Assembly: GCA_947455195.1 (NCBI GenBank)
Contig: CANGMI010000005.1
Span: forward strand, 378,609 to 442,608
DNA: 64,000 nucleotides
Origin: Pseudomonadota bacterium
GTDB lineage: Bacteria; Pseudomonadota; Gammaproteobacteria; Burkholderiales; SG8-39
Direction: 5' to 3'
A program made the translations under genes and the position numbers. The notes under the pieces were generated by a model. The model was not told the origin of the DNA and did no database searches. It saw nothing but the letters and a program-made list of their open reading frames with translations. This document shows, piece after piece, positions 19,438 to 57,391 of this stretch (position 1 is the first letter of the stretch; each line of letters starts with the position of its first letter).

Positions 19438-19469
19438 GGCGGATGTCTCTGTGTCGTGGGTTTGGCGAT

Positions 19470-21445: not shown

Positions 21446-21484
21446 GGCGCGATCGCGGTTCTGTGGTGCCGCGGTCTCTGGACG

Positions 21485-22603: not shown

Positions 22604-23007
22604 GATTGACCTCTCGGTGATGTAAAGCGACGGGGATGGCATTCGGGTGGCGCGATCAGGCATGCAGTGCGCCAGGCTGGCTTGAGGACGGCTTCGGCGA
22701 AGCAAGCGGTATGCCAGAGGGCTCGAGCCGGGCATCCCAAAGCGCCGGGTGCGGTCTGCGCTCCGTCGGCGTGCGTCGGGGTATCGCGCTGGTCCACTTC
22801 GGTGCAGAGGCCCGTAACGCGCGCTGTGTCCGGATCCCTTGCCGCAGGACATCCTTGTTTCGCGCCTGAAGCCTGGCCGGTGTCGCGGGACAGCGCGCCT
22901 TGAGTGCGGTCAATCGCCCGACCCGCTGCCCGCGTAAGGTCCGGACATGCGCCGGGCGTCAGGTTTGGAGCCACGAGGGCGCCCCTGAGGCTCACGTGGA
23001 TAGCGGC

Positions 23008-33558: not shown

Positions 33559-34896
33559 ATGAAGGATCCGGCAGAACTGGTGGTCGATGCGGTCGATCGC
33601 GGCATCTTCACGGTTGACCGGGCGGTGTTCACGGATCCGGCCATCTTCGAACTGGAGATGCGGCACATCTTCGAACACACCTGGGTCTATCTCGGCCTGG
33701 CCTCTCAGGTAGCTGCGCCCAACGACTATTTCACCACCTTCATCGGGCGCCAGCCCGTGATCGTCATGCGCGATGCCACCGGGCGCCTCGGGGCCTTCAT
33801 GAATACCTGCCGCCACCGAGGCGCCCTGGTCTGTCAGCGCCGCCAGGGCAATGCCCGGTACCACGTGTGCGCTTACCATGGTTGGGCCTACGGTAGTGAT
33901 GGTCGTTCGAAGACCATCAAGGACCTTGACACGGGCGCCTACAGCGAGCACTTCCTGGCTGATGATCACGACCTCGTACCGGTCGCGCGGTTCGGCGAGT
34001 ACCGCGGGTTTCTTTTCGCAAGCCTGAGTGCAGAGGTGCCCAGCCTCGAGATGCATCTGGGCGACATGCGCTTCTTTCTCGATCTTGTGGTCGATCAGGG
34101 GCCCAAGGGCATCGAAGCGGTGCCCGGGTCGTCGAGTTACACCTTCCGGGCCAACTGGAAACTGCAACTCGAGAACGGGATGGATGCCTATCACCTCACC
34201 TCGACGCATCCGAGTTTCATGAACATCGTCGACCGTCGCAACGCGGGCGAGTCGGCCAATCGTCTGAAGTCACTCGATTTTGCGGCCTATCGGGAACGTG
34301 GCGGATTTACCTTCGATCATGGCCACAGCGCGCTCTTCACGCCCAACCCGAACCCGCAGGTGCGCCCGCTCTTTGCGTCGATCGACGAGTTGCGATCGCG
34401 CGTGGGCGAAGCGCGTGCACGGTGGATGCTCAACACGCGCAACATCACCGTGTTTCCGAACCTGCAGATTGCCGAGAATGCATCGCTGCAGTTGCGCGTG
34501 ATGCGGCCGCTCTCCCACGACCTCACCGAGATGACCATCCACTGTCTGGCGCCGGTCGATGAGGCTGATGCAGCGCGCGATTTCCGCCTGCGGCAGTTCG
34601 AGGATTTCTTCAATGCCTCGGGACTGGCCACCCCCGACGACACGACCTGCTACGAGGACTGCCAGAGCGGTTACGGGGCCGGCATCGTTCGCTGGCAGCA
34701 GGGCTATTCGCGCGGGATCATGTCGGTGCAACCTGGCAGTGGTCCGATCGGCGAGTCCATCGGCATCGAGGCGAGGACGCATCAGATGGGAGCGGCCAAG
34801 GTGCAGGACGAGACCATCTTTCACGCCGGGTACCGCGAGTGGGTGCGTCTCATGAAAGCGGGACTCGCCCGCGACGCGGCAGGGGCGACCTCGTGA
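33559..34896 (+). CDS. Aromatic ring-hydroxylating dioxygenase alpha subunit (Rieske)
   Basis: Rieske motifs CRHRGALVCQRRQGNARYHVCAYHGW; mononuclear Fe motif ENGMDAYHLTSTH. Confidence 0.93.
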   Translation: MKDPAELVVDAVDRGIFTVDRAVFTDPAIFELEMRHIFEHTWVYLGLASQVAAPNDYFTTFIGRQPVIVMRDATGRLGAFMNTCRHRGALVCQRRQGNARYHVCAYHGWAYGSDGRSKTIKDLDTGAYSEHFLADDHDLVPVARFGEYRGFLFASLSAEVPSLEMHLGDMRFFLDLVVDQGPKGIEAVPGSSSYTFRANWKLQLENGMDAYHLTSTHPSFMNIVDRRNAGESANRLKSLDFAAYRERGGFTFDHGHSALFTPNPNPQVRPLFASIDELRSRVGEARARWMLNTRNITVFPNLQIAENASLQLRVMRPLSHDLTEMTIHCLAPVDEADAARDFRLRQFEDFFNASGLATPDDTTCYEDCQSGYGAGIVRWQQGYSRGIMSVQPGSGPIGESIGIEARTHQMGAAKVQDETIFHAGYREWVRLMKAGLARDAAGATS

Positions 34897-35423
34897 GCGG
34901 CATCGATCCGGCCCGGGTCCTGTCCGAGGTCAGCGCGTTCCTGCATGACGAGGCGCTCGCGCTCGACGAGAGGCGCTGGTCTGACTGGCTCGACCTGTTC
35001 ACGGTCGATTGCGAATACTGGGTGCCAGCCTGGAAGTCCGAAGATGAGCAGACCAGCAATCCGGGGCGAGAACTCTCGCTCATCTACTACGGTGCGCGTG
35101 CCGGTCTCGAGGACAGGGTCTGGCGTGTCGAGTCGCGGCGTTCGGTGGCATCGGCCGTTTTGCCGCGCACCCAGCACCTCATCAGCAACGTGCGTGTCAC
35201 CGGTTCTCGCGAGATACCGGGTGTCTCGGGCGCCGCTGAGATCGATGTTCGCTGCGAATGGACCGTGCACCAGTATCTGCCCAAGGAGCGTGCGGTCGAA
35301 CTCTTCTTCGGCCGTTACGAGGTCTGTCTGGTGCGTCACCCTGAAGGCTTGCGCATTGCCCGCAAGAAGATCGTGCTGCTCAATGATTACCTGCCGGCAC
35401 GCATCGATTTCTACAGTCTGTAA
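34893..35423 (+). CDS. Aromatic ring-hydroxylating dioxygenase beta subunit
   Basis: VSAFLHDEALALDERRWSDWLDLFTVDCEYWVPAWKSEDEQTSNPGRELSLIYY...RTQHLISNVRV; overlaps alpha stop. Confidence 0.92.
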   Translation: MSGIDPARVLSEVSAFLHDEALALDERRWSDWLDLFTVDCEYWVPAWKSEDEQTSNPGRELSLIYYGARAGLEDRVWRVESRRSVASAVLPRTQHLISNVRVTGSREIPGVSGAAEIDVRCEWTVHQYLPKERAVELFFGRYEVCLVRHPEGLRIARKKIVLLNDYLPARIDFYSL

Positions 35424-35472
35424 TCGCTGCGCCCCGACAGATGAGGCCAGGCGTGGCCCGGAGGAGAAACCA

Positions 35473-36456
35473 TTGAAGGCTTACCGCTCGATCATCGTGA
35501 TGGCGATGGGCATTGCTTCCATCGTGGGGACGTCGATTGCCGTCGCGCAGGCCCCTGCTGAGGCATGGCCCGCGCGGCCGGTACGTATCGTTGCCGGTTT
35601 TCCGCCCGGTGGCAGCACCGACATCATTGCCCGTACCGTGGCGCAGGGGCTGGGCGAAGTCCTGCGGCAGGCTTTCGTGGTCGAAAATCAGCCCGGTGCC
35701 AGTACAGCCATCGCTGCGACCACCGTGGCTCGGGCTGCGCCCGATGGCTACACGCTGCTGGTCGGGGCGAGCAGCACCATGACCATCAACCCGGTACTCT
35801 ATCCCAACCTGGCCTATTCGCCCGAGCGCGATCTGCGGCCTGTCACCATCATGGGGAGCTTCCCGCTGATTCTTGCGGTCAATCCGTCGTTGCCGGTGAA
35901 CAGCGTGCGCGAGCTGATCGACTACAGCCGTCGCCCCGAACGGCAGCTGAACTACAGCACCGCGTCGGTTGCCTTTCAACTGGCGACCGAGATGTTCAAG
36001 CAGATGTCCGGTGCGCAGCTGTATCACGTGCCCTACAAGGGGAGCAGTCAGGCGATGCTGGCCGTGCTCTCGGGGGATGTTCAGGTGGTGATTCTCGACG
36101 GTGCGCCCCTTGTGCCTCACATGCAGTCAGGCCGGTTGCGAGCGCTGGCAGTCACATCGGCCACGCGCTCGCCACTCTATCCATCCCTGCCGACGGTGTC
36201 GGAAGCGGGAGTCCCCGACTATCAGGTCGAACTGTGGATCGGCCTCTTTGCGCCGGCGCGCACGCCCGGCGAGGTCGTGGCGCGTCTGCAAGCCGAGATC
36301 GCGCGCCTGATGCAGCGCACCGAGGTGCGCGAGAAGTTTGCTCGTCTGGGCATCGAGGCTCGAGGCGACTCCGCCGAACAGACTGCCGCCATGATCCGTG
36401 CCGAGGCTGTTCGCTTCGCCGCCATCATCCGGTCGGCTGGCATCAAGCCGGAATGA
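35473..36456 (+). CDS. Bug-family tricarboxylate transporter substrate-binding protein
   Basis: WPARPVRIVAGFPPGGSTDIIARTVAQGL...VENQPGASTAIAATTVARAAPDGYTLLVG; TTG start, gaggag RBS. Confidence 0.92.
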   Translation: MKAYRSIIVMAMGIASIVGTSIAVAQAPAEAWPARPVRIVAGFPPGGSTDIIARTVAQGLGEVLRQAFVVENQPGASTAIAATTVARAAPDGYTLLVGASSTMTINPVLYPNLAYSPERDLRPVTIMGSFPLILAVNPSLPVNSVRELIDYSRRPERQLNYSTASVAFQLATEMFKQMSGAQLYHVPYKGSSQAMLAVLSGDVQVVILDGAPLVPHMQSGRLRALAVTSATRSPLYPSLPTVSEAGVPDYQVELWIGLFAPARTPGEVVARLQAEIARLMQRTEVREKFARLGIEARGDSAEQTAAMIRAEAVRFAAIIRSAGIKPE

Positions 36457-41649: not shown

Positions 41650-41958
41650 GTGGAGATTCCCCGCACCTGGTTGCTCGAGCCCTCAGGCAAGGCCATCACG
41701 CGCGAGTGCCGTTTTGCCGACTTCGGCGAGGCATTCGCGTTCATGACCGAAATGGCACTCTTTTCTGCACAGGTGGACCATCACCCCGAATGGTCGAATG
41801 TGTACAACCGGGTGAACGTTCGCCTCACCACCCATGATGCGGGTGGGCTGTCCGAGCGCGATATCCGCTGGGCGATAGAGGCCGATCGGGTGCTTGCGCG
41901 CCGTGCATGGGGCGCTGATTCGACGCCTGCCCAGGGCGGCATCAACGGTGAACGTTGA
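41650..41958 (+). CDS. 4a-hydroxytetrahydrobiopterin dehydratase (PCD/DCoH family)
   Basis: [55 protein letters not shown]. Confidence 0.92.
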
Positions 41959-42631
41959 CGCAGGCACGCTCGCGGCCATCAGGCTCACGGTGCAGCTTGC
42001 CGGTCTGACGACGCTCTGTCTGCTGATCATCGCCACGCCGCTCGCCTGGTGGCTTGCGCGTTCCAAATCGCGCTGGCGTGTGCCCGTCGGGGCCCTCGTG
42101 ACCCTGCCCCTCGTGTTGCCGCCGTCCGTGCTGGGCTTCTATCTGCTGCTGGCCCTCGGACCCGAGGGGCCGCTGGGACAGTTGACCCAGGCCCTCGGCT
42201 GGGGCGTGCTCTCGTTTACCTTCACCGGGCTCCTCATCGGGTCGATCTTCTACTCGCTGCCCTTCGCGGTGCAGCCGATGCAGCATGCCTTCGAAGCGAT
42301 GGGTGATCGTCCGATGGAAGTGGCTGCTACCCTGCGCGCACGTCCGGTCGATGCATTCTTCTCGGTTGCCCTGCCGCTGGCGCGCCCCGGCATCGCGACT
42401 GCGGCGATTCTGGGATTTGCCCACACCGTGGGCGAGTTCGGGGTGGTACTGATGATCGGGGGCAACATTCCCGGTCGCACCCGGGTCGTATCCACCGAGA
42501 TCTATGGCCATGTCGAAGCCATGGAGTACGCTCAGGCGCACGTGCTGTCGGCTGGCATGCTCATCTTCTCCTTTGTCGTGCTGCTCGCGCTGGCCCGGAT
42601 ACGCCGGAGTTGGGGGAGGGTGCCCTCGTGA
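41948..42631 (+). CDS. modB: Molybdate ABC transporter permease
   Basis: [25 protein letters not shown]...[31 protein letters not shown]. Confidence 0.92.
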
Positions 42632-43740
42632 GCGTCTCAGCCACCGAGGGCGAGGCGCTGGCCGAGGGTATCGAGCTTCGATTCACCCTGCCGCGCACCG
42701 GATTCGATCTCGAAGTCGATCTGCGTCTGCCCGCTCGCGGCATCACCGTGCTTCACGGGCCCTCGGGTTCGGGCAAGACGAGCGTCCTGCGCTGCGTGGC
42801 TGGCCTGGAGCGTCCCCACAATGGGTATGTGCGCATCGGTGACCAGATCTGGCAGGATGACCGGCGCGGCCACTTTCTGCCGACCTGGCGACGTGCGCTG
42901 GGGTATGTCTTCCAGGAAGCGAGCCTGTTCGAGCATCTCGATGTGCGTGCAAACCTGCATTTCGGGCTGCGGCGTGATTCCGATTCACGGGCCCGGCAGA
43001 GCCTGGCTGAAGCCATCGAACTGCTTGGCATCGGGCACCTGCTCGGTCGTGCTCCGCATGCCCTCTCGGGCGGTGAGCGCCAGCGGATTGCCATTGCCCG
43101 GGCGCTCGCAGCCCGTCCGCGGGTCCTGCTGCTCGACGAACCCCTTTCCGCAATCGATCATTCGCGCCGACAGGAAATTCTCCCGTGGCTCGAGCGGATG
43201 CGAGACGAACTCGAAATGCCCATGATTCACGTGACGCATTCGGCCGACGAGGTGGCGCGTCTTGCGACCTACCTCGTGGTGCTGGAAGCCGGACGGGTGA
43301 AGGCATCAGGTGCCGTCGCCGGCGTGCTCAGCAGCCTCGATCTCCCGGTCGTCGTTGGTGAGGATGCGGCAGCCTTGCTAGAAGGTGAACTGCTCGAACG
43401 TGATGTGGCCTGGCATCTGGCTCGCGTGGGCTTTGCGGGCGGCAGTCTCTGGGTCGCCGATGGCGGACTTCCCCTGGGGCGTCGAGTGCGTCTGCGGGTA
43501 CTCGCGCGCGACGTGAGCATCACCACGCAGGAACCGGGGTACACCAGCATCCAGAATCATGTGCGCGGCGTCGTCGAATCGATGGCAGGCGATGTGCACC
43601 CGTCGCAGGTTCTGGTTCGCCTGCGCTGTGGTGACAGCGTGCTCCTCGCGCGGGTGACCCGTCGCGCGATGGCAAGCCTCGAACTGGGGCCGGGGCGCCC
43701 GGTCTGGGCTCAGGTGAAATCGGTCGCGCTCGTGCAGTGA
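42628..43740 (+). CDS. modC: Molybdenum ABC transporter ATP-binding protein
   Basis: [51 protein letters not shown]-terminal TOBE-like domain. Confidence 0.92.
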
Positions 43741-44434: not shown

Positions 44435-45211
44435 TCAACGATACGCCCACCAGGTGAATCGACGCTCGACCACGACCATTGCGGCATACAGCACGATGCC
44501 GAGCACCGCCAGTGCGAGGAGCGAGGCGAAGACAAGCGGGACTTCAAAGGCGGCCTGTGCGGTAAGCATGAGATGCCCGACACCGCTGTTCGATCCCACC
44601 GTTTCTGCCATCACCGATCCCACGAAGGCGAGCGTGATGGCGACCTTGAGCGAACTGAAGAAGTAGGGCATGGCACGCGGCAGGCCGATCTTGGAAACGA
44701 TTTCCATGCGGCTCGCACCGAGCGCTTTCAGCACATCACGCAATTCGGGTTCCGTGGTGGCCAGACCGGTTGCCACGTTCACGACGATCGGAAAGAAGGA
44801 AATCAGGAATGCCGTGATCACGGCTGGAATGCTGCCGACCCCGAACCAGAGAATCAGGACAGGCACCACGGCCACCTTCGGAATCGAGTTGAACCCGATC
44901 ATGACCGGGTAGAGGCCTTCGTAGATCTGCGTACTGATGCCGATGAGCACCCCGATCAGGAGGCCCGCGACCGTTGCGATGCCGAAACCGGCCAGCGTCG
45001 TCCAGAGCGTTACGGCTGAATCCGCCACGATGGCCTTTCGGTATTCCCAGAGTGCCCCGAAGATTTGCGAGGGCGCCGGCAGGAAGGTTGGCGGTACCTT
45101 GAACCCACGACACCCGATTTCCCATGTCACGAACAGCGCAAGGGTGAAGAGCACTGGCCACGTGATGTAGGACGGAATGCGGTGTGAGGAGCGACGTGCG
45201 GTGGGCGACAT
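44435..45211 (-). CDS. ABC transporter permease (NitT/TauT family)
   Basis: LPAPSQIFGALWEYRKAIVADSAVTLWTTLAGFGIATVAGLLIGVLIG...GFNSIPKVAVVPVLILWFGVG. Confidence 0.93.
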   Translation of the reverse strand: MSPTARRSSHRIPSYITWPVLFTLALFVTWEIGCRGFKVPPTFLPAPSQIFGALWEYRKAIVADSAVTLWTTLAGFGIATVAGLLIGVLIGISTQIYEGLYPVMIGFNSIPKVAVVPVLILWFGVGSIPAVITAFLISFFPIVVNVATGLATTEPELRDVLKALGASRMEIVSKIGLPRAMPYFFSSLKVAITLAFVGSVMAETVGSNSGVGHLMLTAQAAFEVPLVFASLLALAVLGIVLYAAMVVVERRFTWWAYR

Positions 45212-45407: not shown

Positions 45408-46448
45408 GTGAGAAAGTTGTTCGTTCCGACCCTGATGGCAGCCGCGCTCGGCATGGGGCTGAGTGCGCCCACGTTCGCCCAGACCGCGGTGAAGTTCTCG
45501 CTCGACTGGCGCCCCGAGTCACCGAATTCAGGGTTCATGGTTGCCGCCGACAAGGGCTTCTACAAGGCCGAGGGGCTTGATGTCACGATCGACCCGGGCA
45601 ACGGCTCGGTTGATGGCATCAACCGCCTGGCCAGTGGTTCCTACCAGCTCGCGATGTCGGACACCAATTCCCTGATCCGCTACCGCGACAATCCGGCCAA
45701 TCCGAAGATCAAGGCCGTCTTCATGCTGATGAATGCGCCGGCCTTCGCGGTGACTTCGCTGAAGAAGAATGGCATCTTGAAGCCCCGTGACCTCGAGGGC
45801 CGTCTGGTCGGGGCGCCCGCCGCCGACGGCGCCTACGCCAACTGGGCGCCCTTCATTCGCGCGGCCGGGGTCGACGGCACGAAGATCCGCATCGAAAACG
45901 TCGGATTCCCGGTGCGCGAACCGATGCTCATGCAGGGCAAGGTCGATGCCATCGTGAGCTTTGCCTACAGTTCGGTGGTGGCGCTGCGCAGCAACGGCTT
46001 CAACGCCGAGGACATCACGGTGATGTACATGCGCGACTACGGTCTCGAACTGTACGGCAACTCGCTGATGGCCTCGCCTCAGTTCATGGCCGAGAGTCCC
46101 GATGTGATCCGCAAGTTCGTGCGCGCGAGCATCAAGGGGTTCATGGAGGTTGCCGCGCGGCCCGAGGAAGGGGTCGCTGCCGTTCTGAAGCGCAATCCGG
46201 TAGCCAAGGAAAGCCCCGAAGCCATGCGCCTGGGCATCTTCATGAACGACAACTTCATGACGGCCGATGTGAAGGCCAATGGCGTCGGGCATGTTGACGC
46301 TGCGCGTATGGCGCGTTCGATCGAGCAGATCGGTGAGACCTTCAAGTACACCAACAAGCCCGCGCCGACCGACATCTACACCGACGAGTTCCTGCCGCCG
46401 AAGGCCGAGCGGGCCGTCCCGGCGGCCCTCGCCAGCAAGAAGTTCTAG
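45408..46448 (+). CDS. ABC transporter substrate-binding protein (NMT1/THI5-like)
   Basis: AVKFSLDWRPESPNSGFMVAADKGFYKAEGLDVTIDPGNGSVDGINRLASGSYQLAMSDTNSLI. Confidence 0.92.
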   Translation: MRKLFVPTLMAAALGMGLSAPTFAQTAVKFSLDWRPESPNSGFMVAADKGFYKAEGLDVTIDPGNGSVDGINRLASGSYQLAMSDTNSLIRYRDNPANPKIKAVFMLMNAPAFAVTSLKKNGILKPRDLEGRLVGAPAADGAYANWAPFIRAAGVDGTKIRIENVGFPVREPMLMQGKVDAIVSFAYSSVVALRSNGFNAEDITVMYMRDYGLELYGNSLMASPQFMAESPDVIRKFVRASIKGFMEVAARPEEGVAAVLKRNPVAKESPEAMRLGIFMNDNFMTADVKANGVGHVDAARMARSIEQIGETFKYTNKPAPTDIYTDEFLPPKAERAVPAALASKKF

Positions 46449-47554
46449 GCCGTTGCCACAGCGCAGGCGCCATCACGGAACACTACCGTGGTGACGCCGC
46501 CCCCTTCTGGTGCCTGATGCACCGAATCGGCGGAGACAAAGAAGCGCAGATGCCCCAGCAGACTGCCAAGTACCCCTGAGGCAGCGGCCCGGATGTGCGA
46601 TTCGGGTGCCCAGCTGCTCGTGTACACGATGGTGCGCGACCCGCGCACCATGCAGTCCTCGGCCACCATGGTCTTGGCAATGAGTGCCTCGATGCGGTTG
46701 CCATCGAGCAGTTCGCCGAACGCGTCGAACTGGAAACCTTCTTTCGCGAGCAGGGCCCGGATCGAGCGCTGATCGAGAATGTCACGTGTGTGGGTGGTTG
46801 CGATCCGCAGATCACCCCCGGCCCCGGGTCGATTACCCATGGCGATCACCTCGATCCGGGTGATCTCGGCACCGGTGATTCCCTGAACGTGCTTGGCGTA
46901 GATCGACAGATCGCGCGTGATCGACTCTTCGGTCAGACGGTTTCGATCGACTTCGCCCAGCGCAACGCCACCACCCAGCGCCGAAATGCCGCGGCCGCGA
47001 TGCATGGTCGAATTGGCTGGGGTTGCCGCTGGGTGGCGGGCTGCCAGAAGTGGAGACTTGATCATGAGGAGACGCACCTGATCGGGTGCAAGGTGGGCGT
47101 CACGCATGGCTGCCCGCGCGGTCTCGGCAACCCGGTCGACCAGAGCAAGCGTTCCGATGTCGGCGATCGGTACGGTATCGCTTCGCGCAGTGCCGAGCGC
47201 GAGTCGCGCCGGTGCGTTCCGGTTCGCGGTGCCTGGAGCGACAGGCGCAGCGCCGGGAGTCTCGGGCGGGTCGGCGAAGTCGGCGAAGGCAAAGCCCTTG
47301 GGCGAGCCCACGCCTTCGCTGCCGATGGCGAGCATCGAGAGCGCTCGGTCGGTGATGCCCAGACGCATGAACAACTCGTCGAGCTTGAGCTTCAGCAGGT
47401 CACGCGAGAAATCATTGGGTGAGTGGTGACCCTCGGTCTTGGCAAAGACCGCCAGACGCCGCAGTCGAGCCAGTGGCTGCGACTCGAGCCAGCGCTCGAG
47501 TGAAGAGACATCGCCCGCGCCAGCCATGTCAAAACAGGTCACGTTGGTGGTCAT
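46445..47554 (-). CDS. Ring-opening amidohydrolase (cyanuric acid amidohydrolase/barbiturase family)
   Basis: Internal triplication with FAKTEGHHSPNDFSRDL, AIGSEGVGSPKGFAF, SALGGGVALGEVDRN, EDCMVRGSRTIVYTSSWAPESHIRAAASGVLGSLLG. Confidence 0.85.
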   Translation of the reverse strand: MTTNVTCFDMAGAGDVSSLERWLESQPLARLRRLAVFAKTEGHHSPNDFSRDLLKLKLDELFMRLGITDRALSMLAIGSEGVGSPKGFAFADFADPPETPGAAPVAPGTANRNAPARLALGTARSDTVPIADIGTLALVDRVAETARAAMRDAHLAPDQVRLLMIKSPLLAARHPAATPANSTMHRGRGISALGGGVALGEVDRNRLTEESITRDLSIYAKHVQGITGAEITRIEVIAMGNRPGAGGDLRIATTHTRDILDQRSIRALLAKEGFQFDAFGELLDGNRIEALIAKTMVAEDCMVRGSRTIVYTSSWAPESHIRAAASGVLGSLLGHLRFFVSADSVHQAPEGGGVTTVVFRDGACAVATA

Positions 47555-47558
47555 GGTG

Positions 47559-48359
47559 TCATTCCGTCGGTGATGGATGGAGGTGTTTTCGGCACAGGGC
47601 CAGCAGTGCGGTGGTCGCCGGGTCGGCCTGCATGCCCGCGCCCTCGTACAGGGCGAGATCCTTTTCGAGCCAGGCAAAGCGTCGGTCTGGATGGCTCTCG
47701 GGATCGCCGAGAGCGTGGCCCAGTCGTTCCAGTTGGACCGAGGCGGCGGTGCCTTGCGCGAGTGCTGCAAACACGCGCGCGAGTGGCAGGCCCTGCGCCA
47801 GGGCAAAGGAGCGGGCTGTTTCCAGACCGACGGCGATGCCGGCAATGGCGATCTGGTTGGCCATCTTGCAGGTCTGACCGGCACCTGGTCCGCCCAGGTG
47901 AATGACCTCGCGCGTGTAGGCGGCGAGAACGGCAAGTGCTCGCGCCAGGGCGTCCTCGGGCGCGCCCAGCATGGCCACCAGTTCACCACGCTCGGCGCCC
48001 GGAACGCCCCCCGAGAGCGGGGCATCACAATAGGCGATACCTTGTCTGGCAAGGTAGGCGTGAACTTCGCGCGCCCAGGTTGTGCTGGTGGTGGTGTGGT
48101 CGAGCACCAGGCTGCCCCGGGGCCAGCCCTGCGCTCGGTCGGCGATCACCGCTCGTGCGGCCGGTTCGTCCGTGACACACAGAACGACGACATCCGGGGC
48201 TTGGCGAGGATGGTCAGCCGGGGTTGCCCCACTGCGTTCACGCCACCGTGTTCGGGCCGACGGCAACGGATCGATGCCGTCGAGCGTATGGCCCGCCGCC
48301 TGCAGGTGCAGGGCCATGGGCAGGCCCATCGCCCCCAACCCGTGAAAGTGAATGTGCAT
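47559..48359 (-). CDS. NAD(P)-dependent oxidoreductase (3-hydroxyisobutyrate dehydrogenase family)
   Basis: HFHGLGAMGLPMALHLQAAGHTLDGID; DAPLSGGVPGAERGELVAMLG; GPGAGQTCKMANQIAIAG. Confidence 0.93.
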   Translation of the reverse strand: MHIHFHGLGAMGLPMALHLQAAGHTLDGIDPLPSARTRWRERSGATPADHPRQAPDVVVLCVTDEPAARAVIADRAQGWPRGSLVLDHTTTSTTWAREVHAYLARQGIAYCDAPLSGGVPGAERGELVAMLGAPEDALARALAVLAAYTREVIHLGGPGAGQTCKMANQIAIAGIAVGLETARSFALAQGLPLARVFAALAQGTAASVQLERLGHALGDPESHPDRRFAWLEKDLALYEGAGMQADPATTALLALCRKHLHPSPTE

Positions 48360-48429
48360 CGCGAGCAGGTTTCTGGCGTGAGGCGATGGGTGTCGTTGCG
48401 TGTGTCAGGTTACCGCCATCGGCCGTGCC

Positions 48430-49158
48430 TCAGGCTGCCCTCAGCGCCGCGCCCGCTGCCGTTTCCGACGCAACGCCGAGGGCGGACTCGAAGCTCGCCA
48501 CCGGAGACGTCCAGCCGAAGAATCGTTCGACATTCCAGAGGGTCGCGTCGCGCAGGAAGGGCGGGCCGGCATGGTGGGTGGCATCGTCGATCAGCAGGCA
48601 GAAGTACTCGCGGTGATAGGCCTCGCGCAGCGTGCTCTCGACGCAGACATTGGCTGCCACGCCGCAGAACACCAGGTTGCGGATGCGCCTGGCCCGAAGT
48701 ACCTGATCGAGCGGTGTGCCAGCAAATGCGCTGTAGCGCGATTTGCGCACCACCAGTTCGGTCTCGAGAGGTTTCAGTTCATCGACGAGTTCGTAGTCCC
48801 AGGTGCCATCGGTGATGAGCTTCCAGGCCAGCTCGGGGCGCTCGCGCATCAGCACCTGCGCTTCCGACTTGTGCCAGACGGGCGCCGTGTCGCCGCCAAC
48901 AACCAGATGCCTGGCATCGAACCCGCTCTGGATGAAGGTAACGAACATGCCGGCGGCACGCGCGGCGGCAACCGTGCGGCCCACCCGCTCGATGGTGCCC
49001 GGTGCGTGGGCGAGGTCGTAACCCACCTGGTCGAAGTACCCTCCCGCCTTGAGAAAACCGTTCTGCATGTCCACCACCACGACGGCGGTTTCATCGGCAC
49101 GCCATTCCAGTGCAACCGGCTTTGCCTGCGGCAACGAGATGAATCCCGCATTTTTCAT
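48430..49158 (-). CDS. rutB: RutB-like isochorismatase-fold amidohydrolase (ureidoacrylate/peroxyureidoacrylate hydrolase-like)
   Basis: VVVVDMQNGFLKAGGYFDQVGYDLA...PVWHKSEAQVLMRERPEL...DGTWDYELVDELKP...KSRYSAFAGTPLDQVLRARRIRNLVFCGVAANVCVESTLREAYHREYFCLLIDDATHHAGP; block-for-block like E. coli RutB as recalled. Confidence 0.8.
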   Translation of the reverse strand: MKNAGFISLPQAKPVALEWRADETAVVVVDMQNGFLKAGGYFDQVGYDLAHAPGTIERVGRTVAAARAAGMFVTFIQSGFDARHLVVGGDTAPVWHKSEAQVLMRERPELAWKLITDGTWDYELVDELKPLETELVVRKSRYSAFAGTPLDQVLRARRIRNLVFCGVAANVCVESTLREAYHREYFCLLIDDATHHAGPPFLRDATLWNVERFFGWTSPVASFESALGVASETAAGAALRAA

Positions 49159-50297
49159 GACTGCTTCTCCCTGATGCCCAGCACGCGATCGAGTACCCAG
49201 TTGTCGAGGGCGTGAACGATCTTTTCCTTCACGGAAAATCGCCCCGGGCTTGCATGCCGGCTCTGAAGCCCCGCCTGCTGCCATTCGGCGATGTCGTTGT
49301 CCTCGCCCACGACGATATCCTGTCTCTTGAAGTAATGGGATGCCAGCCGTTCGAAATCCGGACGCTCGAAGCGTTCAGCCGGGAAGCATGAACTGAGCAC
49401 GATCTTCGTCCGCAACGGGCCCTCGGGCCAGGCCTCGAAACACCACATCGTGTCGTTGGCAATTGCCAGCATCGCGTTCGGATAGATGAGGATGAACCGG
49501 CTGCCCAGGCTCGACTCGCCCGTCAGGGTCTCGATCGGCCCGAATCCTTCATCGCCCTGCAGCAGGGCGCGTGTGCCCTCGTGCCGCTCGTAGATGGCCG
49601 TGTACTCACCTCGCCCCGGCTCTTCGGGCATGTTCACGACCTTCTGGCGCGAGATGGTCGAGCGATGCACGCTGGGAATGTGATAGCCCTCCATGAAGTT
49701 CTCGACCCAGACCTTCCAGTTGCAGGCCACCGGGTACTCCACCCGCCGTGCGGTACGCATCGTGCCAAAGCCGTACATGGCCAAGCGCTCGGGAAGATCT
49801 CCGAGCCACTGGGCGAGGGGCGGTGCGTCCTCCGAGACGCAGACGAACATGAAGCCATCCCAACTGTCGATGCGTACCCGCTTGAGCGGGTAGTCGGCCA
49901 GGTTGAAGTTTGCGGTGTCCTGCATGCCGGGTGCCGCAGCGAGCGTACCGTCGAGCTTGTACGTCCAGGCGTGATAGGGGCAGGAGAAGGCGCGACAGTG
50001 GCCTTCGCCTTTCACCAGAGGTGCGCCCCGATGACGGCAGGTATTGGAGAGTGCCTGAAGGCTGCCATCCTCTGCTCGCGTGAGGATCAGGCTCACATCG
50101 CCGAAACCCACCGTGCAGAAGTCACCCGGGTCGGGAATACGGTCGGTGCGCCCGACCATCAGCCATCCTTGCGTGAAGATGGTGTCACATTCGCGCTGGT
50201 GGAACCCCGCGTCGTGGTAGCAGGCCGGTGGCAGACCGTGGGCCTGCTCGAGGGGCCTGCGTACTGCCTCGTAGGCGGTCGGGTCGAGCAGATTCAT
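49155..50297 (-). CDS. Rieske [2Fe-2S] ring-hydroxylating oxygenase alpha subunit
   Basis: CRHRGAPLVKGEGHCRAFSCPYHAWTYKLDG; NWKVWVENFMEGYHIPSVH; 4-nt overlap with rutB-like gene. Confidence 0.93.
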   Translation of the reverse strand: MNLLDPTAYEAVRRPLEQAHGLPPACYHDAGFHQRECDTIFTQGWLMVGRTDRIPDPGDFCTVGFGDVSLILTRAEDGSLQALSNTCRHRGAPLVKGEGHCRAFSCPYHAWTYKLDGTLAAAPGMQDTANFNLADYPLKRVRIDSWDGFMFVCVSEDAPPLAQWLGDLPERLAMYGFGTMRTARRVEYPVACNWKVWVENFMEGYHIPSVHRSTISRQKVVNMPEEPGRGEYTAIYERHEGTRALLQGDEGFGPIETLTGESSLGSRFILIYPNAMLAIANDTMWCFEAWPEGPLRTKIVLSSCFPAERFERPDFERLASHYFKRQDIVVGEDNDIAEWQQAGLQSRHASPGRFSVKEKIVHALDNWVLDRVLGIREKQS

Positions 50298-50634: not shown

Positions 50635-52089
50635 ATGAGCATGGAAACGACCCCGGATACCGAGGCGACGCGCGCCCTGCGCAAGCGCATCGCGCATGAC
50701 ATCGAGTGCCTGAGTTACCCGGCAAGACCCTGGGTCACGCCGCGAGATGCCGAGGGTCAGATTCTCAATTGCATCATCGTTGGTGGTGGACAGTACGGAC
50801 AGAGCCTCGCCTTCGGCCTCGCGCGCGATCGGGTCGATCGGGTAGTGGTGTTCGATGCCAATCCGGCCGGTTTTGCCGGCCCGTGGATGACCTTTGCGCG
50901 CATGATCATGCTGCGTACGCCGAAGGATCTCACGGGCCCTGATCTCGGTATCGGCAGCCTCACCTTCCGGGCCTGGTACGAGGCGCGCTATGGCGTCGAG
51001 GCTTGGGACAGGCTCTTTCGCATCCAGCGGCCCGACTGGCAGGCCTACCTCAATTGGCACCGTGATGTCACCGGCATCGATGTGCGCCCGGCCAGCGTGG
51101 TGACGCGCGTGGCTCCGGTGGCGGCCGATCTGTTCGAGGTCGATGTCCTGAGTGCCGGGCAGACCGTGACCCATCGGGCGAGAACCGTCATCCTGGCCAG
51201 CGGCGCTGAGGGGAGCGGTGCGCGTTCCGTGCCCTCCCTCTTTGCCGGACTGTCACGCAGTCTTTACGCCCACACCAATGACCCGATCGATTTCAGCCGT
51301 GTCGTGGGCAAGCGCGTGGGTATTCTGGGGGCGGGTGCCTCGAGTTTCGACAATGCGACGGCAGCACTGGTCGCCGGGGCGGCGAGCGCCGACTTGTGTT
51401 TTCGTCGACCTCAGTTGCCCCTGTCCAATCCGCGGCGCTGGATGGAGTTTGCTGGCTTTCTCGCCCATTACCCCGAGTTGCCCGACGAGCAGCGCTGGCG
51501 CTACATGAAGCGTCTGTACGACATCAGCCAGCCACCGCCTGAGCCCACGTTCAAGCGTGCCGTGAGTCTGCCCGGATTCCGGATGCGTCCGGCGACGCCC
51601 TGGCTCGCCTTGCACGAGCACGACGGGGTCGTGCACGTCGAGACGCCCGATGGCACGCTCGAATACGATTTCGTCATCGCGGGTACCGGAATCAGCGTCG
51701 ACCTGAACCAGCGCCCCGAACTGGCCGCGATCGCACCGCATGTCGCTCTTTGGGGAGACCGGTTCGTGCCACCGGCTGGCGAAGCCGATGACCGCCTGGC
51801 GCGATTCCCCTACCTGGACCGCTATGGCGCGTTCATGGAACGCACGCCCGGCAGCGCACCCTGGGCGGGACGTCTGTTCGCGATCTTTCGTGCCGCCACG
51901 CTGAGCCTGGGCCCGAGTTCGGCCTCGAACAGCAACATCCGCTACACCGCACCGCGCATCGTTTCCGGTGTGACCCGCGCGCTCTTTCTCGATGAGGCCG
52001 ATTCGGTGTTTGCCGAGTTCATGGCCCAGGCGCATCACGAACTGCAGCCCGATGCCGTGATTCAGGCGGCGGGTCAGCCTGCGGGCTGA
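50635..52089 (+). CDS. FAD/NAD(P)-binding flavoprotein (flavin-containing monooxygenase-like)
   Basis: CIIVGGGQYGQSLAFGLARDRVDRVVVFDANP and VGKRVGILGAGASSFDNATAALVAGAASADLCFRR (two Rossmann motifs). Confidence 0.88.
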   Translation: MSMETTPDTEATRALRKRIAHDIECLSYPARPWVTPRDAEGQILNCIIVGGGQYGQSLAFGLARDRVDRVVVFDANPAGFAGPWMTFARMIMLRTPKDLTGPDLGIGSLTFRAWYEARYGVEAWDRLFRIQRPDWQAYLNWHRDVTGIDVRPASVVTRVAPVAADLFEVDVLSAGQTVTHRARTVILASGAEGSGARSVPSLFAGLSRSLYAHTNDPIDFSRVVGKRVGILGAGASSFDNATAALVAGAASADLCFRRPQLPLSNPRRWMEFAGFLAHYPELPDEQRWRYMKRLYDISQPPPEPTFKRAVSLPGFRMRPATPWLALHEHDGVVHVETPDGTLEYDFVIAGTGISVDLNQRPELAAIAPHVALWGDRFVPPAGEADDRLARFPYLDRYGAFMERTPGSAPWAGRLFAIFRAATLSLGPSSASNSNIRYTAPRIVSGVTRALFLDEADSVFAEFMAQAHHELQPDAVIQAAGQPAG

Positions 52090-52961
52090 GGCAGACAGGT
52101 CGCCGCATGTGCGGCGATGTCGCCCGGGCGCGCGATCCAGACCTCGTTGCGGTGCGCCGCCAGATGCGCCAGGAAGCGTCTGAAGGGATTCAGCCGGAAG
52201 GCATGCCCGATGAGATAGGGATGCAGGCTCAGGTTGAAGACCAGCGGCCGGCGACGACTCGTTTCGAGCATTTCGTCAAAGGCGTCGAAGAGGGTCTCGA
52301 CCCACGAGCGCGGTGTCATTTTCGCCCCGTGCAAGGCGCTGATGTCGTTGGTGGGGCGCGCATAGGGCAGGGCCATGAGCGGCCCGTTGGCCGTTCCGAG
52401 CCAGAACGGCTGGTCGTCGCACGGCCAGTCGAGGAGATATTCAAGCCCGGCCGCCGCCAGCAGCTCCGGCGTGCGAGCGCTCTCGTTGACCCAGGGGCTC
52501 ATCCAGCCCCTCGCGGGGCGCCCCTCGGCCCGGTGAATGCGGGCCAGGCAGTCGGTGATCATCGCGGCTTCATCGGCCTCGCTCATGTCGCACTGGCGAT
52601 TGGCATTGGTATGACCGTGGCCGACGATCTCGTCACCGCGCGCACGCAGCGCCTCTGCGATGCGCGGATGCGCTTCATAGACCGCCGTGTTCATCAGCGC
52701 TGCCGCCGGCAGCTGATGGGCATCGAGCGCTTCGAGCAGATGCCAGATGCCGACCCGGTTGCCCCAGTCTCTCCAGCCATAGTTCACGACATCGGGTTCG
52801 GGCTGGCGTGGATTCAGGTCAGGCGCGAGGCCTTCGCCGAACGGGAACGTCTCCACGTTGATGGCGATGTAGACGGCGAGTCCGTGACCGCCGGGCCACT
52901 GCCAGGTCGGACGATCGATGATCGCCGAATAGGGGTAGCGACCGTGGCCGCGCAGACTCAT
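52074..52961 (-). CDS. Polysaccharide deacetylase-fold hydrolase (PuuE allantoinase-like)
   Basis: WPGGHGLAVYIAINVETFPFGEG...ALMNTAVYEAHPRIAEALRARGDEIVGHGHTNANRQ...RGWMSPWVNESARTPELLAAAGLEYLLDWPCDDQPFWL. Confidence 0.85.
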   Translation of the reverse strand: MSLRGHGRYPYSAIIDRPTWQWPGGHGLAVYIAINVETFPFGEGLAPDLNPRQPEPDVVNYGWRDWGNRVGIWHLLEALDAHQLPAAALMNTAVYEAHPRIAEALRARGDEIVGHGHTNANRQCDMSEADEAAMITDCLARIHRAEGRPARGWMSPWVNESARTPELLAAAGLEYLLDWPCDDQPFWLGTANGPLMALPYARPTNDISALHGAKMTPRSWVETLFDAFDEMLETSRRRPLVFNLSLHPYLIGHAFRLNPFRRFLAHLAAHRNEVWIARPGDIAAHAATCLPQPAG

Positions 52962-53506
52962 GCGCTGACCGGCGTCGGCAATACGAGCCGATAGGCGCGG
53001 CCAAACTGCTCGTCGAGACGGCAGTTGTGATGGTCCACGAGATTGGTGTCAGCCAGTTCGAGGTTGAAGAAGTCCACACGCTCGGCTTCGAAGAACGGGC
53101 CCACGTGCCAGGTGGACCGGTGCATCGCCACGGCCACGTTGCCCGGGATGCTGAAGGCACGGATCGAAGCCGGATCGGCCAGTGCCTCGGGGTTGTCGGG
53201 ATCCCCGGGTGTGGCAACCGCCATCAGCCAGGGGTGACCGCCGACGGAGGCGAGGCATTGGGTCACGGACAGGTGGCGCGTGAGATGCCGGAAGGTGAGT
53301 TCCCGATGGTGCAGGCGCATGACATAGAAGCGGGGCGTGCCCCGGGCAAGGTCGAGTTGCGCTTCATCAGGCCCGAAGGGCTTGCCGTCTTCCGCCGACT
53401 CGATCAGCGTTCCGTAAGGGGAAAAGGCGGCGGCGCTGATGGGCTCGACGATGAGATCGATGAGTTCTACGTGGCGTGACGCGGCAGTTCCGGGCGGATG
53501 GCTCAA
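52958..53506 (-). CDS. allA: Ureidoglycolate lyase (AllA-like); 5' end uncertain (possible TTG)
   Basis: VEPISAAAFSPYGTLIESAEDGKPFG...GNVAVAMHRSTWHVGPFFEAERVDFFNLELADTNLVDHHNCRL; 4-nt overlap with PuuE-like gene. Confidence 0.82.
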   Translation of the reverse strand: MSHPPGTAASRHVELIDLIVEPISAAAFSPYGTLIESAEDGKPFGPDEAQLDLARGTPRFYVMRLHHRELTFRHLTRHLSVTQCLASVGGHPWLMAVATPGDPDNPEALADPASIRAFSIPGNVAVAMHRSTWHVGPFFEAERVDFFNLELADTNLVDHHNCRLDEQFGRAYRLVLPTPVSA

Positions 53507-53573: not shown

Positions 53574-54356
53574 CTACTGGAACCACTTGCGGTCGAGTCG
53601 ATCGAGAAAGCCGTCGCGGCGCAGTTCGTCGAGCAGGCGGTTGATCTCCTGCAGCAGGGCGGTGTCCTCCAGACGGGTATTGATGCCGACCTCTCGGGTG
53701 TCGAAGGCGGGTGACACCAGCAGTTTGCCACCGCGGCGTGACGCGTTGTACTTCAGCACCGGCAGCGTGTTGACGACCACGTCGGCGCGCCCGGTTTCGA
53801 CATCGGCGAAGGCCAGTGGAAATTCGTTGAAGACCTTGATCTGTTTCACGACCGAGCCGTACTCGTCTTTCACGAAGCGCTCGCCCGAGCTGCCGCCCTG
53901 TACCGCCACGATCTTGCCGGCAAGGTCTGCTGCGCTCGCGACGTTGACGCCTGGCCGCGCCGCCGCCGCGATGCCCGAGTTGTAGTACGAGGTGGAAAAC
54001 GCCATGCGCTCGGCGCGTTGCGGTGTCTTGGTCATGGCGGTGATGAGAACGTCGACTCGGCGCGAGGTAAGCGAGGCAATGAGACCGCTGAAGTCGGTCT
54101 TTTCCCACTGTGCCTTGACGCCCATGCGCCGGGCAATTTCGTTGCCCAGATCGATGTCGAACCCGACCAGCTGGCCGTTCTCGACGAACTCGAAGGGCGG
54201 GAAGGCTGCTCCGTTGCCGATGACGATCGTTCCGCGCGCCTTGATGCTTTCGGGTGTGCTCTGGGCACTTGCGTGGTGCGCGAGGCCGAGGTCGAGGCCA
54301 AGACTGAACAGGGCCGCGCCGAGCAGACGCAGGACGGGGCGACGTGATGGTTTCAA
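53574..54356 (-). CDS. Polar amino acid-type ABC transporter substrate-binding protein
   Basis: IKARGTIVIGNGAAFPPFEFVENGQLVGFDIDLGNEIARRMGVKAQWEKTDFSGLIASLTSRRVDVLI. Confidence 0.92.
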   Translation of the reverse strand: MKPSRRPVLRLLGAALFSLGLDLGLAHHASAQSTPESIKARGTIVIGNGAAFPPFEFVENGQLVGFDIDLGNEIARRMGVKAQWEKTDFSGLIASLTSRRVDVLITAMTKTPQRAERMAFSTSYYNSGIAAAARPGVNVASAADLAGKIVAVQGGSSGERFVKDEYGSVVKQIKVFNEFPLAFADVETGRADVVVNTLPVLKYNASRRGGKLLVSPAFDTREVGINTRLEDTALLQEINRLLDELRRDGFLDRLDRKWFQ

Positions 54357-54369
54357 GGTGTGTTCCTTT

Positions 54370-55158
54370 TCAGTGAGTTGAAGGGGTCGACAGGCCGAGG
54401 AACTCGCGGGTTCGGGCGGCGCTCGGCTGGCTGAACAACAGTGCGGGTGGCCCTTGTTCGACGATGAGGCCACCGTCCATGAAGACCACGCGGTCGGCGA
54501 CATCGCGCGCAAATCCCATCTCGTGGGTCACGATGAGCATCGTGAGGCCGTCCTGCCTCAACTGGCGCATCACCGCAAGCACTTCGCCCACCAGCTCAGG
54601 GTCCAGAGCCGAGGTCACCTCATCGAACAGCATCAGCGCCGGGCGCATCGCAAGGCAGCGAGCGATGGCAACACGTTGCTGCTGACCACCGGACAATTCG
54701 CCCGGATAGGCCCCGGCCTTGCCCAGGAGGCCGACCTTCTCGAGGAGTGCAAGGGCGTGCTTGCGCGCCGCCGATTCGCTCTGGCGCAGCACCTGCATCG
54801 GCGCTTCCATGAGATTGGCCAGAACGGTCATGTGCGGGAACAGATTGAACTGCTGGAACACGATGCCGATACCGGCGCGCAGCCGATCCAGTTCACGCTC
54901 CGACTGGCGTACGCGTGTGCCCTCGGCGCCCGCGGACCACCCGATCGGTTCGCCATTGACCCGCACTTCACCGGTGTCGAAGGGTTCGAGAAAATTGATG
55001 CATGACAGGAGCGTGCTCTTGCCCGATCCCGAGGGGCCGATCACGACGACCGCCTCGCCGTGCGCGACATCGAGATCGATGCCGCGCAGCACCGGATGAG
55101 CGCCGTAGTGCTTGTGCAGATTGCGGACGCGCAGCATCGCAGGGTTGTCGCTCATCAT
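54370..55158 (-). CDS. Polar amino acid-type ABC transporter ATP-binding protein
   Basis: [28 protein letters not shown]...[20 protein letters not shown]...[40 protein letters not shown]. Confidence 0.94.
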
Positions 55159-55811
55159 CAACGGATCCGGTAGCGCTGCTCGAGCACGCGGTTGATGACG
55201 AGCAGCGGAATGGTGAGTGCGAGATAGAGCAGTCCCACGCCCGCGAACGGGCTGAACGTATTCGCCTTCCAGGTCATGGCGTCTACTCCTGCGCGCAGGA
55301 GATCGGAGATCGCGATGACCGAGACGAGTGCGGTGTTCTTCACCAGGGTGATCGCCTCGTTGGTGAGGGGCGGCAACACGCGCCGGAAGGCTTGCGGCAG
55401 GATGATGCGGCGCATCGCCAGTGCGTAGGACATCCCGAGTGATCGGGCGGCCCGCATCTGCCCGCGATCGATCGACTCGATGCCACTGCGAACGATCTCT
55501 GTCACGTAGGCACCATTCGTGATCGAGAGCGCCAGGATGGCCACCGCCGGTGCCGACAGCAGGATTCCGACAGAGGGCAGGCCGTAGTACAGGAAGAGCA
55601 GTATCACGAGGAGCGGGAGTCCGCGCACGAAGAGCACATAGGCGAGGGCAGTTCCACGCAGGAGCCGGTTGGATGAAACCCGTGCCAGGCCGCCCAGAAG
55701 GCCGAAAACGAGTCCCAGCAGCGCGGCACCGAAGGCCAGTTGTGCGGTGACGAGAGCACCCGCCAGCAGGGCCGGGAAGACTTCGCGGAAGATGGCCGCA
55801 TCGAAATCCAT
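55158..55811 (-). CDS. Amino acid ABC transporter permease (His/Glu/Gln/Arg family)
   Basis: [21 protein letters not shown]...[75 protein letters not shown]. Confidence 0.95.
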
Positions 55812-55813: not shown

Positions 55814-57391
55814 TCAGACGCTCGCCCTGTCAGGGGTTGTCGTTTTGCAGCGTTGCAGCACACGGGTGATCAATGGATCGAATCGCGCGCCGCTCGCGAC
55901 CTGTTCGGGCAGCCAGTCACGTCGCCAGATCGCGGCTGCCTCGCGCGCCTCGTCGAGAATCGCGTCCTCATCGAAAGCCGTGATACGTCGCTTGCGCATG
56001 AGCACCGAACCGGCGACGACCACCGTGTCGATCGCATCGGGTGCTGCTGACCACGCCAGCTGTGCGATCGGGTCGTGCATGGGCACGAAGGCGCGGTGCC
56101 GGGTATCGACGAGCATCAGGTCGGCAGGGGCGCCCGCGACCAGGCGGCCATGGTCAGGCCCCAGTCGCATGCTTGCCGCACCCGAGCGCGTCGCCGCATG
56201 CCAGGCCTCGCCCGGCGTGATCCAGCGGGTGTGCGATTCCTCGGGCGAGCGGTGAATCAGGCTGGCAGCACGCAGAACGGCCAGCATGTCGGCCGTGTCG
56301 CCCGTTGCCGGGCCGTCAGATCCGAGTGCAACCGGTACGCCTGCGTCGAGGAGCGCGCGCACGGGAGTACGGCCACTGCCCAGGCGCAGGTTGCTCAAGG
56401 GGTTGTGCGTCACACATGCACCGCCTCGAGCCATGTGGTCGATGTCCGACGCGTCGACCCAGACGGCGTGGTTCACCGTCATCCTTGGATCGAGGAGCCC
56501 GGTTGCGTGCAGGCGCCGGACGAATCCGCCACCCGGTTGAAGCGACGAGGTCACGCGCTGGGCGTTGCTTTCGAGCACGTGCATGTGCAGCGAGGCATCG
56601 TGTCGGTCGCGCAGTTGCGCGAGGAGGCGCAAGAGTTCATCGCTGCACCGCTGCGGGCCTCGCGGCCCGAGCATGATGCTCAGTCGTCCTCCTGCCGCGC
56701 CGTGCCAGTGCTGATGGGTCCGGGAGAAGAACGCGGCCTGCTGTTCGATCGGCAATGGCGTGATGGCGTCGAGGCAAGTCTGCAGTTCGTGCGGGCACTC
56801 CTCGCGGGCAAAGGGCAACCCGTCAAGGTACTGCCGGTCGGAGAATGTCGTTGCGACGGCAGCGCGCAGCCCGCTGTCGGCCCAGCCCTGCATGACCTGA
56901 TCGATGGCTTCCGGGTCACAACCGGGGTTCAGGCAGTCATCCTGCAAGGCAACGGTGCCCGAGTGGATGGCGTCGCAGGCCACCAGCAGCACTCGCAGGT
57001 AGTGCCAGCGTGCCGGCACGCGGGGCAGACCCAGTGGTGGATAGGCGCGGGCGAGCCACGGTTCGAGGGCTACCGAGCCATGCAGTCCGCGCTCGAAGGC
57101 TTCGTTGGAGTGCACATGCGCGTTGACAAGACCCGGCAGGGCCATCAGGTGCGTCGCATCGATCGAGGCGACTTTCGCCGGCCCGATGGCGGCTGCAACG
57201 CCAGGCCCTGCGGCAAGGATCGCTCCACCACCGATCACGATGTCGACGGGGGCGATCCGTCCCGAGAGTGGGCCGGCAACGGCATTGCGGATGACAAGGT
57301 CGGGCTTGATCGCTGTGACTCCATCCTCTGCTGCCCGTCGCGGTGTGCAATCGGGCTGAGGCTGTCGAGCGACTAGCCAAAAGCATGCCAA
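55814..57391 (-). CDS. Amidohydrolase family protein (SsnA/chlorohydrolase/deaminase-like); start uncertain
   Basis: [102 protein letters not shown]. Confidence 0.88.

Follow-up and report, generated by a model that had tools for sequence, protein, structure and literature searches.

A conserved Burkholderiales gene cluster with a Rieske oxygenase, a RutB-like hydrolase and an AtzD/TrzD-family protein lacking two catalytic serines

Which compound would a bacterium attack with a Rieske oxygenase whose gene runs into that of a RutB-like amidohydrolase, and in what order would the steps follow? The question is raised by a stretch of 64,000 nucleotides (hereafter the window) from a Pseudomonadota bacterium of the lineage SG8-39 in the Burkholderiales (assembly GCA_947455195.1, contig CANGMI010000005.1, positions 378,609 to 442,608 of the forward strand), in which four genes lie contiguously on the minus strand from 50297 to 46445 in the order Rieske, RutB-like, HIBADH-like and RING:

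49155-50297, minus strand: Rieske oxygenase alpha subunit, ATG at 50297 (PF00355, 71.7 bits; PF00848, 120 bits)
48430-49158, minus strand: RutB-like amidohydrolase of the isochorismatase superfamily (PF00857, 136.5 bits; match to PDB 8bkd)
47559-48359, minus strand: HIBADH/tartronate-semialdehyde-reductase-like beta-hydroxyacid dehydrogenase (PF03446, 106 bits; PF14833, 39.5 bits; PDB matches)
46445-47554, minus strand: RING, a protein of the AtzD/TrzD ("Toblerone") family (PF09663, 201 bits; PDB matches)

Pfam and NCBIfam were concordant on the family names of the four genes. The ATG of the RutB-like gene overlaps the TGA of the Rieske gene as a 4-bp ATGA (49158-49155), and gaps of 70 and 4 bp separate the RutB-like gene from the HIBADH-like gene and the latter from RING. 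The coordinates, single strand, overlap, small gaps and families given in a preliminary description of this DNA were confirmed for all four genes. Its "tight four-gene unit" held as a single functional unit, but one larger than four genes: the four are the core of a larger conserved gene set. On balance, and judging from the sequences, we think that this set is probably a catabolic cluster for a cyclic, nitrogen-rich compound of the ureide or imide type (pyrimidine-, purine- or hydantoin-like, and probably alkylated) and that it is mobile or frequently lost, the two parts being judged jointly.

A gene set shared by five Burkholderiales genomes

Five genomes from three Burkholderiales families carry a common set of genes for AllA-like, PuuE-like, Rieske, RutB-like, HIBADH-like and RING proteins, a flavoprotein (FMO) and an NMT1-type binding protein. 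The carriers are the window's genome, G001, G101 (the same as G333), G878 and G233, two of them uncultured metagenome-assembled genomes. In the four genomes other than the window's own, the Rieske, RutB-like and RING proteins are 58-88% identical to those of the window at the amino-acid level, the FMO orthologues 62-89% and the HIBADH-like proteins 43-61%. As the same neighbors recur in four further genomes, the grouping of the four genes is not due to chance. The closest arrangement is found in G001, of the same genus (L028/L041, CAIKRR010000016.1), where all 12 tested window genes, from the NMT1-type gene to the aminohydrolase, are collinear at 61-93% identity. G101 (L042, CAIZNI010000071.1) has the core in the window's order together with a second flavoprotein gene (FMO2), a second HIBADH-like gene, an alpha/beta hydrolase and a nitrile hydratase, and G878 (L115) has the fullest set, with the aminohydrolase and both transporters. 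The cluster of G233 (L102) is rearranged, a nitrilase-family gene replaces the nitrile hydratase, and the relative of the NMT1-type protein, only 34% identical, is placed elsewhere in the cluster, whereas the NMT1-type gene adjoins RING in G001, G101 and G878. The PuuE-like and AllA-like genes are kept in all five carriers; the SBP_bac_3 binding protein, the transporter ATPase and permease and the aminohydrolase are kept in G001 and G878.

Pairwise ratios of nonsynonymous to synonymous substitution rates (dN/dS) against the window ranged from 0.06 to 0.35 for every gene tested, the HIBADH-like gene being the fastest (0.29-0.35), and all tested cluster genes are under purifying selection. Consensus promoter scans matched no promoter and were uninformative here.

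The spread of the cluster is patchy: in one family 2 of the 74 genomes carry it, and in another 1 of 5. Within a sample of 250 Burkholderiales genomes, four had a RutB relative at E<=1e-70; three of these carry the cluster, and the fourth has a true RutB. The RutB-like and RING proteins co-occurred in the same three genomes. Searches for the RING branch in samples of the class (369 genomes) and the phylum (299 genomes) matched the window's own genome alone, and on the basis of these samples the cluster looks rare outside the Burkholderiales. Among the plasmid records listed, none had a RING match above 32% or a Rieske match above 38% identity. A case of apparent loss was seen in G002, a sister species of the same genus, in which the PuuE-like gene, at a point within its N-terminal third, is fused to RING's C-terminal third at AGCGCTCGAT, which both share. 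The junction (L037, G002:C30, 9801-10500) joins the equivalents of window positions 52722 and 46770, removing approximately 6 kb; the Rieske, RutB-like, HIBADH-like and FMO genes are missing there, and the genome has no RutB relative left at E<=1e-70. In G002, deletion between short repeats appears to have removed the block, an assembly error being the alternative.

Active-site residues of the core proteins

RING matches PF09663 over its full length (residues 12-366, 201 bits against a cut-off of 25) and exceeds the cut-off of TIGR02714 (154.4 against 153.1 bits). With sites numbered as in the cyanuric acid hydrolase of A. caulinodans, all five carriers keep Lys40, Lys156, Lys285, Arg52, Arg188, Arg314 and Ser333, and all five have Ala at position 79, Ile at 80 and Ile or Val at 226 (Ile in the window). 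The Ser226-Lys156 dyad has been described as absolutely conserved across the cyanuric acid hydrolase/barbiturase family and as the likely catalytic pair (PMC4051656), and Ser85 of AtzD, the counterpart of Ser79 in A. caulinodans, has been favored as the nucleophile (PMC3758960). The cluster proteins retain Lys156 of the published dyad, its Ser226 partner being replaced in each. Judged by these residues, RING cannot be classed as a standard cyanuric acid hydrolase or as a barbiturase. The earlier designation of the protein as a ring-opening amidohydrolase of barbiturase/cyanurase fold was right as to family membership, but "barbiturase" or "cyanurase" is an unsafe label because RING is without two of the three catalytic serines. 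The retained lysines, arginines and Ser333 nevertheless argue for continued use of the central site. Decay into a pseudogene is ruled out by dN/dS values of 0.07-0.23 and frames intact in five genomes, and Thr227 is ruled out as a substitute nucleophile by an Ala at that position in G878. AlphaFold2 models built from 3-4 sequences had a mean pLDDT of 37 for RING and 51 for FMO and were too poor for use.

In a quick tree with long branches, the five cluster RINGs grouped together (SH-aLRT 100) within a broader set of proteins lacking Ser226, which includes a clade linked to ornithine cyclodeaminase that has Phe226 and Ser79. This second Ser226-less branch of AtzD/TrzD proteins (L024, L019, L020, L091-L100), with Phe226 and Lys188, is common in one Burkholderiales genus (f12 g37), and in the three loci inspected it adjoins an ornithine-cyclodeaminase-like gene. 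Ready-made test cases are thus at hand in a natural branch under selection with two of the three serines gone and in a related one with a single serine gone.

The cluster Rieske proteins form a supported clade of orthologues (SH-aLRT 99). Their bridging residue is Glu (within MEGYH) in five of five, as in CntA (E205; PMC7948474), and Asp in E. coli HcaE. At CntA position 203, which is Tyr in CntA itself and whose aromatic character defines the group Va quaternary-amine oxygenases (PMC7948474), four cluster Rieskes have Phe and that of G233 has Tyr, against Ala or Ser in close relatives that are not part of the cluster. With its bridging Glu and aromatic residue 203, this enzyme seems more likely to monooxygenate or dealkylate next to a nitrogen than to dioxygenate a ring. 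The same two residues, being marks of the amine-oxidizing group V, speak against the idea that the Rieske oxygenase takes the place of RutA as the attacker of the ring. Rieske genes also occur elsewhere: the window's genome has 39 Rieske-domain matches in all, a second Rieske gene lies beside a TctC-type binding protein at 33559-36456 of the window, and three genes of a related subfamily (four with L055) fall within 15 kb of one contig at L084 6012-14496 (G024:C3), interspersed with dehydrogenase, aminotransferase and DUF1989-like genes.

The RutB-like protein is 48% identical to E. coli RutB and keeps the Asp/Lys/Cys triad, its DMQN, K(S/P)RYS and NVCVEST motifs aligning with those of the E. 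coli enzyme. At positions 72, 74 and 80, where E. coli RutB has Asn, Trp and Glu, residues that we take to bind the substrate, the four aligned carriers have Ser, Phe and Val or Cys. Elsewhere in the window (16417-23721), two more isochorismatase-family hydrolases, approximately 30% identical to the RutB-like protein, lie around an ABC ATPase gene, with a permease and a Bmp/PnrA-type binding protein adjoining; this stretch is another possible uptake and hydrolysis unit of pyrimidine or nucleoside type.

The enlarged unit, its possible substrate and the alternatives

Nine further genes of the window belong to or adjoin the unit:

44435-45211, minus strand: ABC permease, partner of the NMT1-type binding protein (77% identity to the NMT1-adjoining permease of L042)
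45408-46448, plus strand: NMT1/THI5-like ABC substrate-binding protein, convergent with RING (PF09084)
50635-52089, plus strand: FMO, a two-dinucleotide-binding flavoprotein, putative N- or C-oxygenase (PF13454/PF13434 matches)
52074-52961, minus strand: PuuE-like hydrolase of polysaccharide-deacetylase fold, candidate cyclic ureide/imide hydrolase (TIGR03212, 104.8 bits)
52958-53506, minus strand: AllA-like protein (ureidoglycolate lyase family), inferred TTG start (PF04115, 44.6 bits, cut-off 23)
53574-54512, minus strand: SBP_bac_3 amino-acid-type ABC binding protein (limits of the open reading frame, start probably nearer 54360; PF00497)
54370-55155, minus strand: ABC ATPase of the amino-acid-type transporter (orthologue 84% identical in G001, 74% in G878)
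55158-55811, minus strand: ABC permease of the amino-acid-type transporter (orthologue 90% identical in G001, 79% in G878)
55814-57391, minus strand: amidohydrolase-superfamily aminohydrolase of TRZ/ATZ, 8-oxoguanine-deaminase type (limits of the open reading frame; PF01979, 133 bits)

The FMO gene diverges from the Rieske gene, and beyond it, upstream of the core and on the same strand as the core, lie the PuuE-like, AllA-like, transporter and aminohydrolase genes; the NMT1-type binding protein and its permease form the downstream side. The AllA-like protein exceeds the PF04115 cut-off and misses the NCBIfam equivalogs (best 33.5 against 260 bits), and every NCBIfam match of the aminohydrolase is below cut-off. 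By the translations of their reading frames, ModB- and ModC-like molybdate transporter genes (41894-43740) adjoin the downstream end of the cluster.

The best-characterized members of the PuuE-, AllA-, RutB-, AtzD- and ATZ/TRZ-type families act on cyclic or open ureides or on amino-heterocycles. From this gene set we infer a substrate class, an order and a series of reactions. The compound would be imported by the NMT1-type ABC transporter and, in three genomes, by the amino-acid-type ABC transporter; the aminohydrolase, where present, would convert a ring amino group to an oxo group, and the Rieske monooxygenase would strip an N- or O-alkyl group or hydroxylate next to a nitrogen, with further oxidation by the flavoprotein or flavoproteins. 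The ring would then be opened hydrolytically by the PuuE-like enzyme, by RING or by both, the ureido or amide group so formed would be cut by the RutB-like hydrolase, urea or a similar unit would be released by the AllA-like protein, and the remaining semialdehyde would be converted to a hydroxy acid by the HIBADH-like enzyme. Of the course proposed in the preliminary description, the RutB-family hydrolase and a cyclic-ureide theme survive, with PuuE-like, AllA-like and aminohydrolase genes nearby, but the protein falls short of the RutB equivalog. An attack initiated by the oxygenase fared worse, as the cluster also encodes other candidates, one or two flavoproteins as oxygenases and two hydrolytic enzymes for opening the ring; given the latter, no oxygenase is needed for ring opening.

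A nitrile step may be added in some carriers. Nitrile hydratase genes lie inside the unit in G101 and G878 (L042, 8203-9225 and 13944-14231; L115, 10757-11809 and 5818-6120), and a nitrilase-type CN_hydrolase gene inside that of G233. In the nitrile hydratases, the alpha chain follows the beta N-terminal domain in one fused protein, and a separate small gene encodes the beta C-terminal domain, a layout that recalls the subunits of thiocyanate hydrolase. Three carriers may thus have a nitrile in their substrate or route, although such genes are common in these genomes: other nitrile hydratase genes were found in all six genomes searched, including the clusterless G002, and the gene was dropped as a marker of carriers. 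It is also a serious possibility, one that we put a little short of even, that the cluster encodes an undescribed pathway of N-heterocycle catabolism, in which a Ser226-less RING with a shifted site (Ser333-Lys285) or a nonserine mechanism would work with a Rieske enzyme and a RutB-family hydrolase of new specificity and, in some carriers, the nitrile step. No article that we found brings a Rieske enzyme together with a barbiturase or cyanuric acid hydrolase. The route of breakdown did not appear in the literature searched, and the cluster offers a complete, testable gene set for it from environmental Burkholderiales.

Several observations weigh against a catabolic cluster for a nitrogen-rich ring compound. 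No core protein reaches a curated equivalog cut-off of NCBIfam: the RutB-like protein has 279.8 bits, and those of two other carriers 273.9 and 287.2, against 377.95 for RutB (TIGR03614); RING has 195.8 against 360 for cyanuric acid hydrolase (NF052395); and the best NCBIfam match of the Rieske protein, the glycine betaine monooxygenase (GbcA) model, gives 165 against 670. Outside the core, the PuuE-like protein has 104.8 against 424.6 for the allantoinase equivalog TIGR03212. The family matches are thus remote from characterized enzymes, and because RutB, PuuE, cyanuric acid hydrolase and GbcA-type Rieske matches all lie far below the equivalog cut-offs, the ureide theme derives from superfamily membership. 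RING may not open rings, as both serines proposed as nucleophiles from crystal structures are absent (PMC4051656, PMC3758960). Neither a reductase for the Rieske oxygenase nor a beta subunit was seen among the neighboring genes, the missing reductase being the point that counts here, and every carrier is a draft genome of many contigs.

Other explanations account for part of the same evidence. The Rieske protein could be an amine oxygenase of group V type whose substrate is a quaternary or N-alkylated amine, and the hydrolases would then process the amide or ureide portions of that molecule, which might be a cyclic betaine or an N-methyl heterocycle. The bridging Glu and Phe/Tyr203, GbcA as the top NCBIfam model and the SBP_bac_3-type transporter agree with this, and the residues come close to the case, an unrelated quaternary-amine substrate, that had been named as refuting the preliminary description. 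The matter is not settled by them: the Cys pair beside the mononuclear iron site, common in group V and present in only some of its members (PMC10952381), is absent, with Gly/Ile in its place, the GbcA cut-off is far off, and the tree does not resolve where E. coli CntA (YeaW) stands with respect to the cluster clade. We regard this explanation as unlikely, if worth keeping in mind. In a pyrimidine pathway of Rut type, the Rieske enzyme would stand in for RutA on the pyrimidine ring, the RutB-like enzyme would hydrolyze a ureidoacrylate-like product, and a barbiturase-type enzyme and a dehydrogenase would act downstream. This model would explain why the RutB-like gene directly follows an oxygenase gene with an ATGA overlap, as rutB follows rutA in E. 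coli, the 48% identity to E. coli RutB and the semialdehyde-type reductase, a role filled in the Rut pathway by RutE/YdfG (PMC8113886). It sits poorly with the missed RutB equivalog, with Rieske residues that favor an amine or N-alkyl monooxygenase over ring dioxygenation, and with FMO and FMO2 as oxygenase candidates beside the hydrolytic ring-openers in the carriers. Moreover, tblastn found no homologues of RutA, RutC or RutD in the cluster (E. coli RutC and RutD queries were unmatched in the window and the carrier loci), and no RutA (TIGR03612) was above the cut-off in five genomes, four carriers and G002 (best 150.9 against 498.3 bits). Such a pathway is quite improbable.

Slightly below the Rut-like pathway in our estimate is a RING that is no longer a ring hydrolase but serves a Rut-like pathway with a YjgF-derived fold, as a fused relative of the YjgF trimer, either for enamine/imine hydrolysis in the role of RutC or for binding. 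Concatenated YjgF-type monomers are the presumed origin of the Toblerone fold (PMC3758960), and RutC belongs to the YjgF/Rid proteins (PMC8113886). All five carriers have lost Ser79 and Ser226 while RING stays under strong purifying selection, and in Roseovarius a RidA gene follows a related Rieske gene. Yet Rid catalysis uses intersubunit sites and a specific Arg, and the Lys, Arg and one Ser kept in the central amidase-type site suggest that this site is in use. The same small chance is given to an alkylpurine or urate-type pathway resembling caffeine C-8 oxidation, in which the PuuE-like enzyme would open an allantoin-like hydantoin and the AllA-like protein would cleave the product. The PuuE-like and AllA-like genes are members of the conserved set, and a monooxygenase gene of FAD_binding_3, the broad family of urate and trimethylurate hydroxylases, adjoins two clusters (L086, 1817-3001; L102, 7975-9180). 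Hydroxylases of this kind are described for caffeine C-8 oxidation (PMC4408171). However, no FAD_binding_3 gene turned up in the cluster stretches of the window, G001 and G878, no genes of HIU hydrolase, OHCU decarboxylase or xanthine-dehydrogenase type were among the cluster genes scanned, and RING and the nitrile enzymes would be left unexplained.

Relation to known systems

Like the E. coli rut operon, the cluster has an oxygenase gene overlapping that of a RutB-family amidohydrolase, and a semialdehyde-type reductase. It differs in having a nonheme iron Rieske enzyme instead of the flavin-dependent RutA, a RutB-like protein below the cut-off and no RutC or RutD, and it goes beyond the operon in its PuuE-, AllA- and AtzD-type proteins and its different transporters. 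With the oxidative pyrimidine pathway (barbiturase, ureidomalonase), it plausibly shares the logic of a ring-opening amidase family followed by ureido-acid hydrolysis, but no ureidomalonase-type or uracil dehydrogenase gene was identified in the unit, and the barbiturase catalytic residues are missing. The caffeine C-8 cluster of Pseudomonas sp. CBB1 similarly contains an allantoinase-like gene among oxygenase-containing heterocycle genes; no caffeine dehydrogenase, TmuH or TmuD was identified here, and the Rieske, RutB-like and RING genes are without counterpart in the published map. The riboflavin/lumichrome catabolic cluster, which also has a Rieske gene, was rejected as a parallel, its gene set being different and its Rieske enzyme a multicomponent quinoxalinedione dioxygenase (PMC12746152).

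Among Rieske enzymes, the nearest likeness is with group V (CntA/YeaW, GbcA, Stc2), from which the cluster enzyme departs in its missing Cys pair and low overall similarity and with which it shares an alpha-only gene, the bridging Glu and the aromatic residue 203 of the Va clade. The ornithine-cyclodeaminase-linked AtzD relatives (L024, L019, L020) are approximately 40% identical to RING and likewise lack Ser226, and some adjoin an aminohydrolase gene; unlike RING, they keep Ser79, have Lys at 188 and an ornithine-cyclodeaminase-like neighbor (read from translations), and are not accompanied by a Rieske/RutB unit. From the characterized members of the AtzD, TrzD and Bar family, to which it is approximately 30% identical, RING is set apart by Ser226 to Ile/Val, Ser79 to Ala and Gly80 to Ile and by its other gene company, whereas the full-length PF09663 domain, the three active-site Lys, the three Arg and Ser333 are shared with them.

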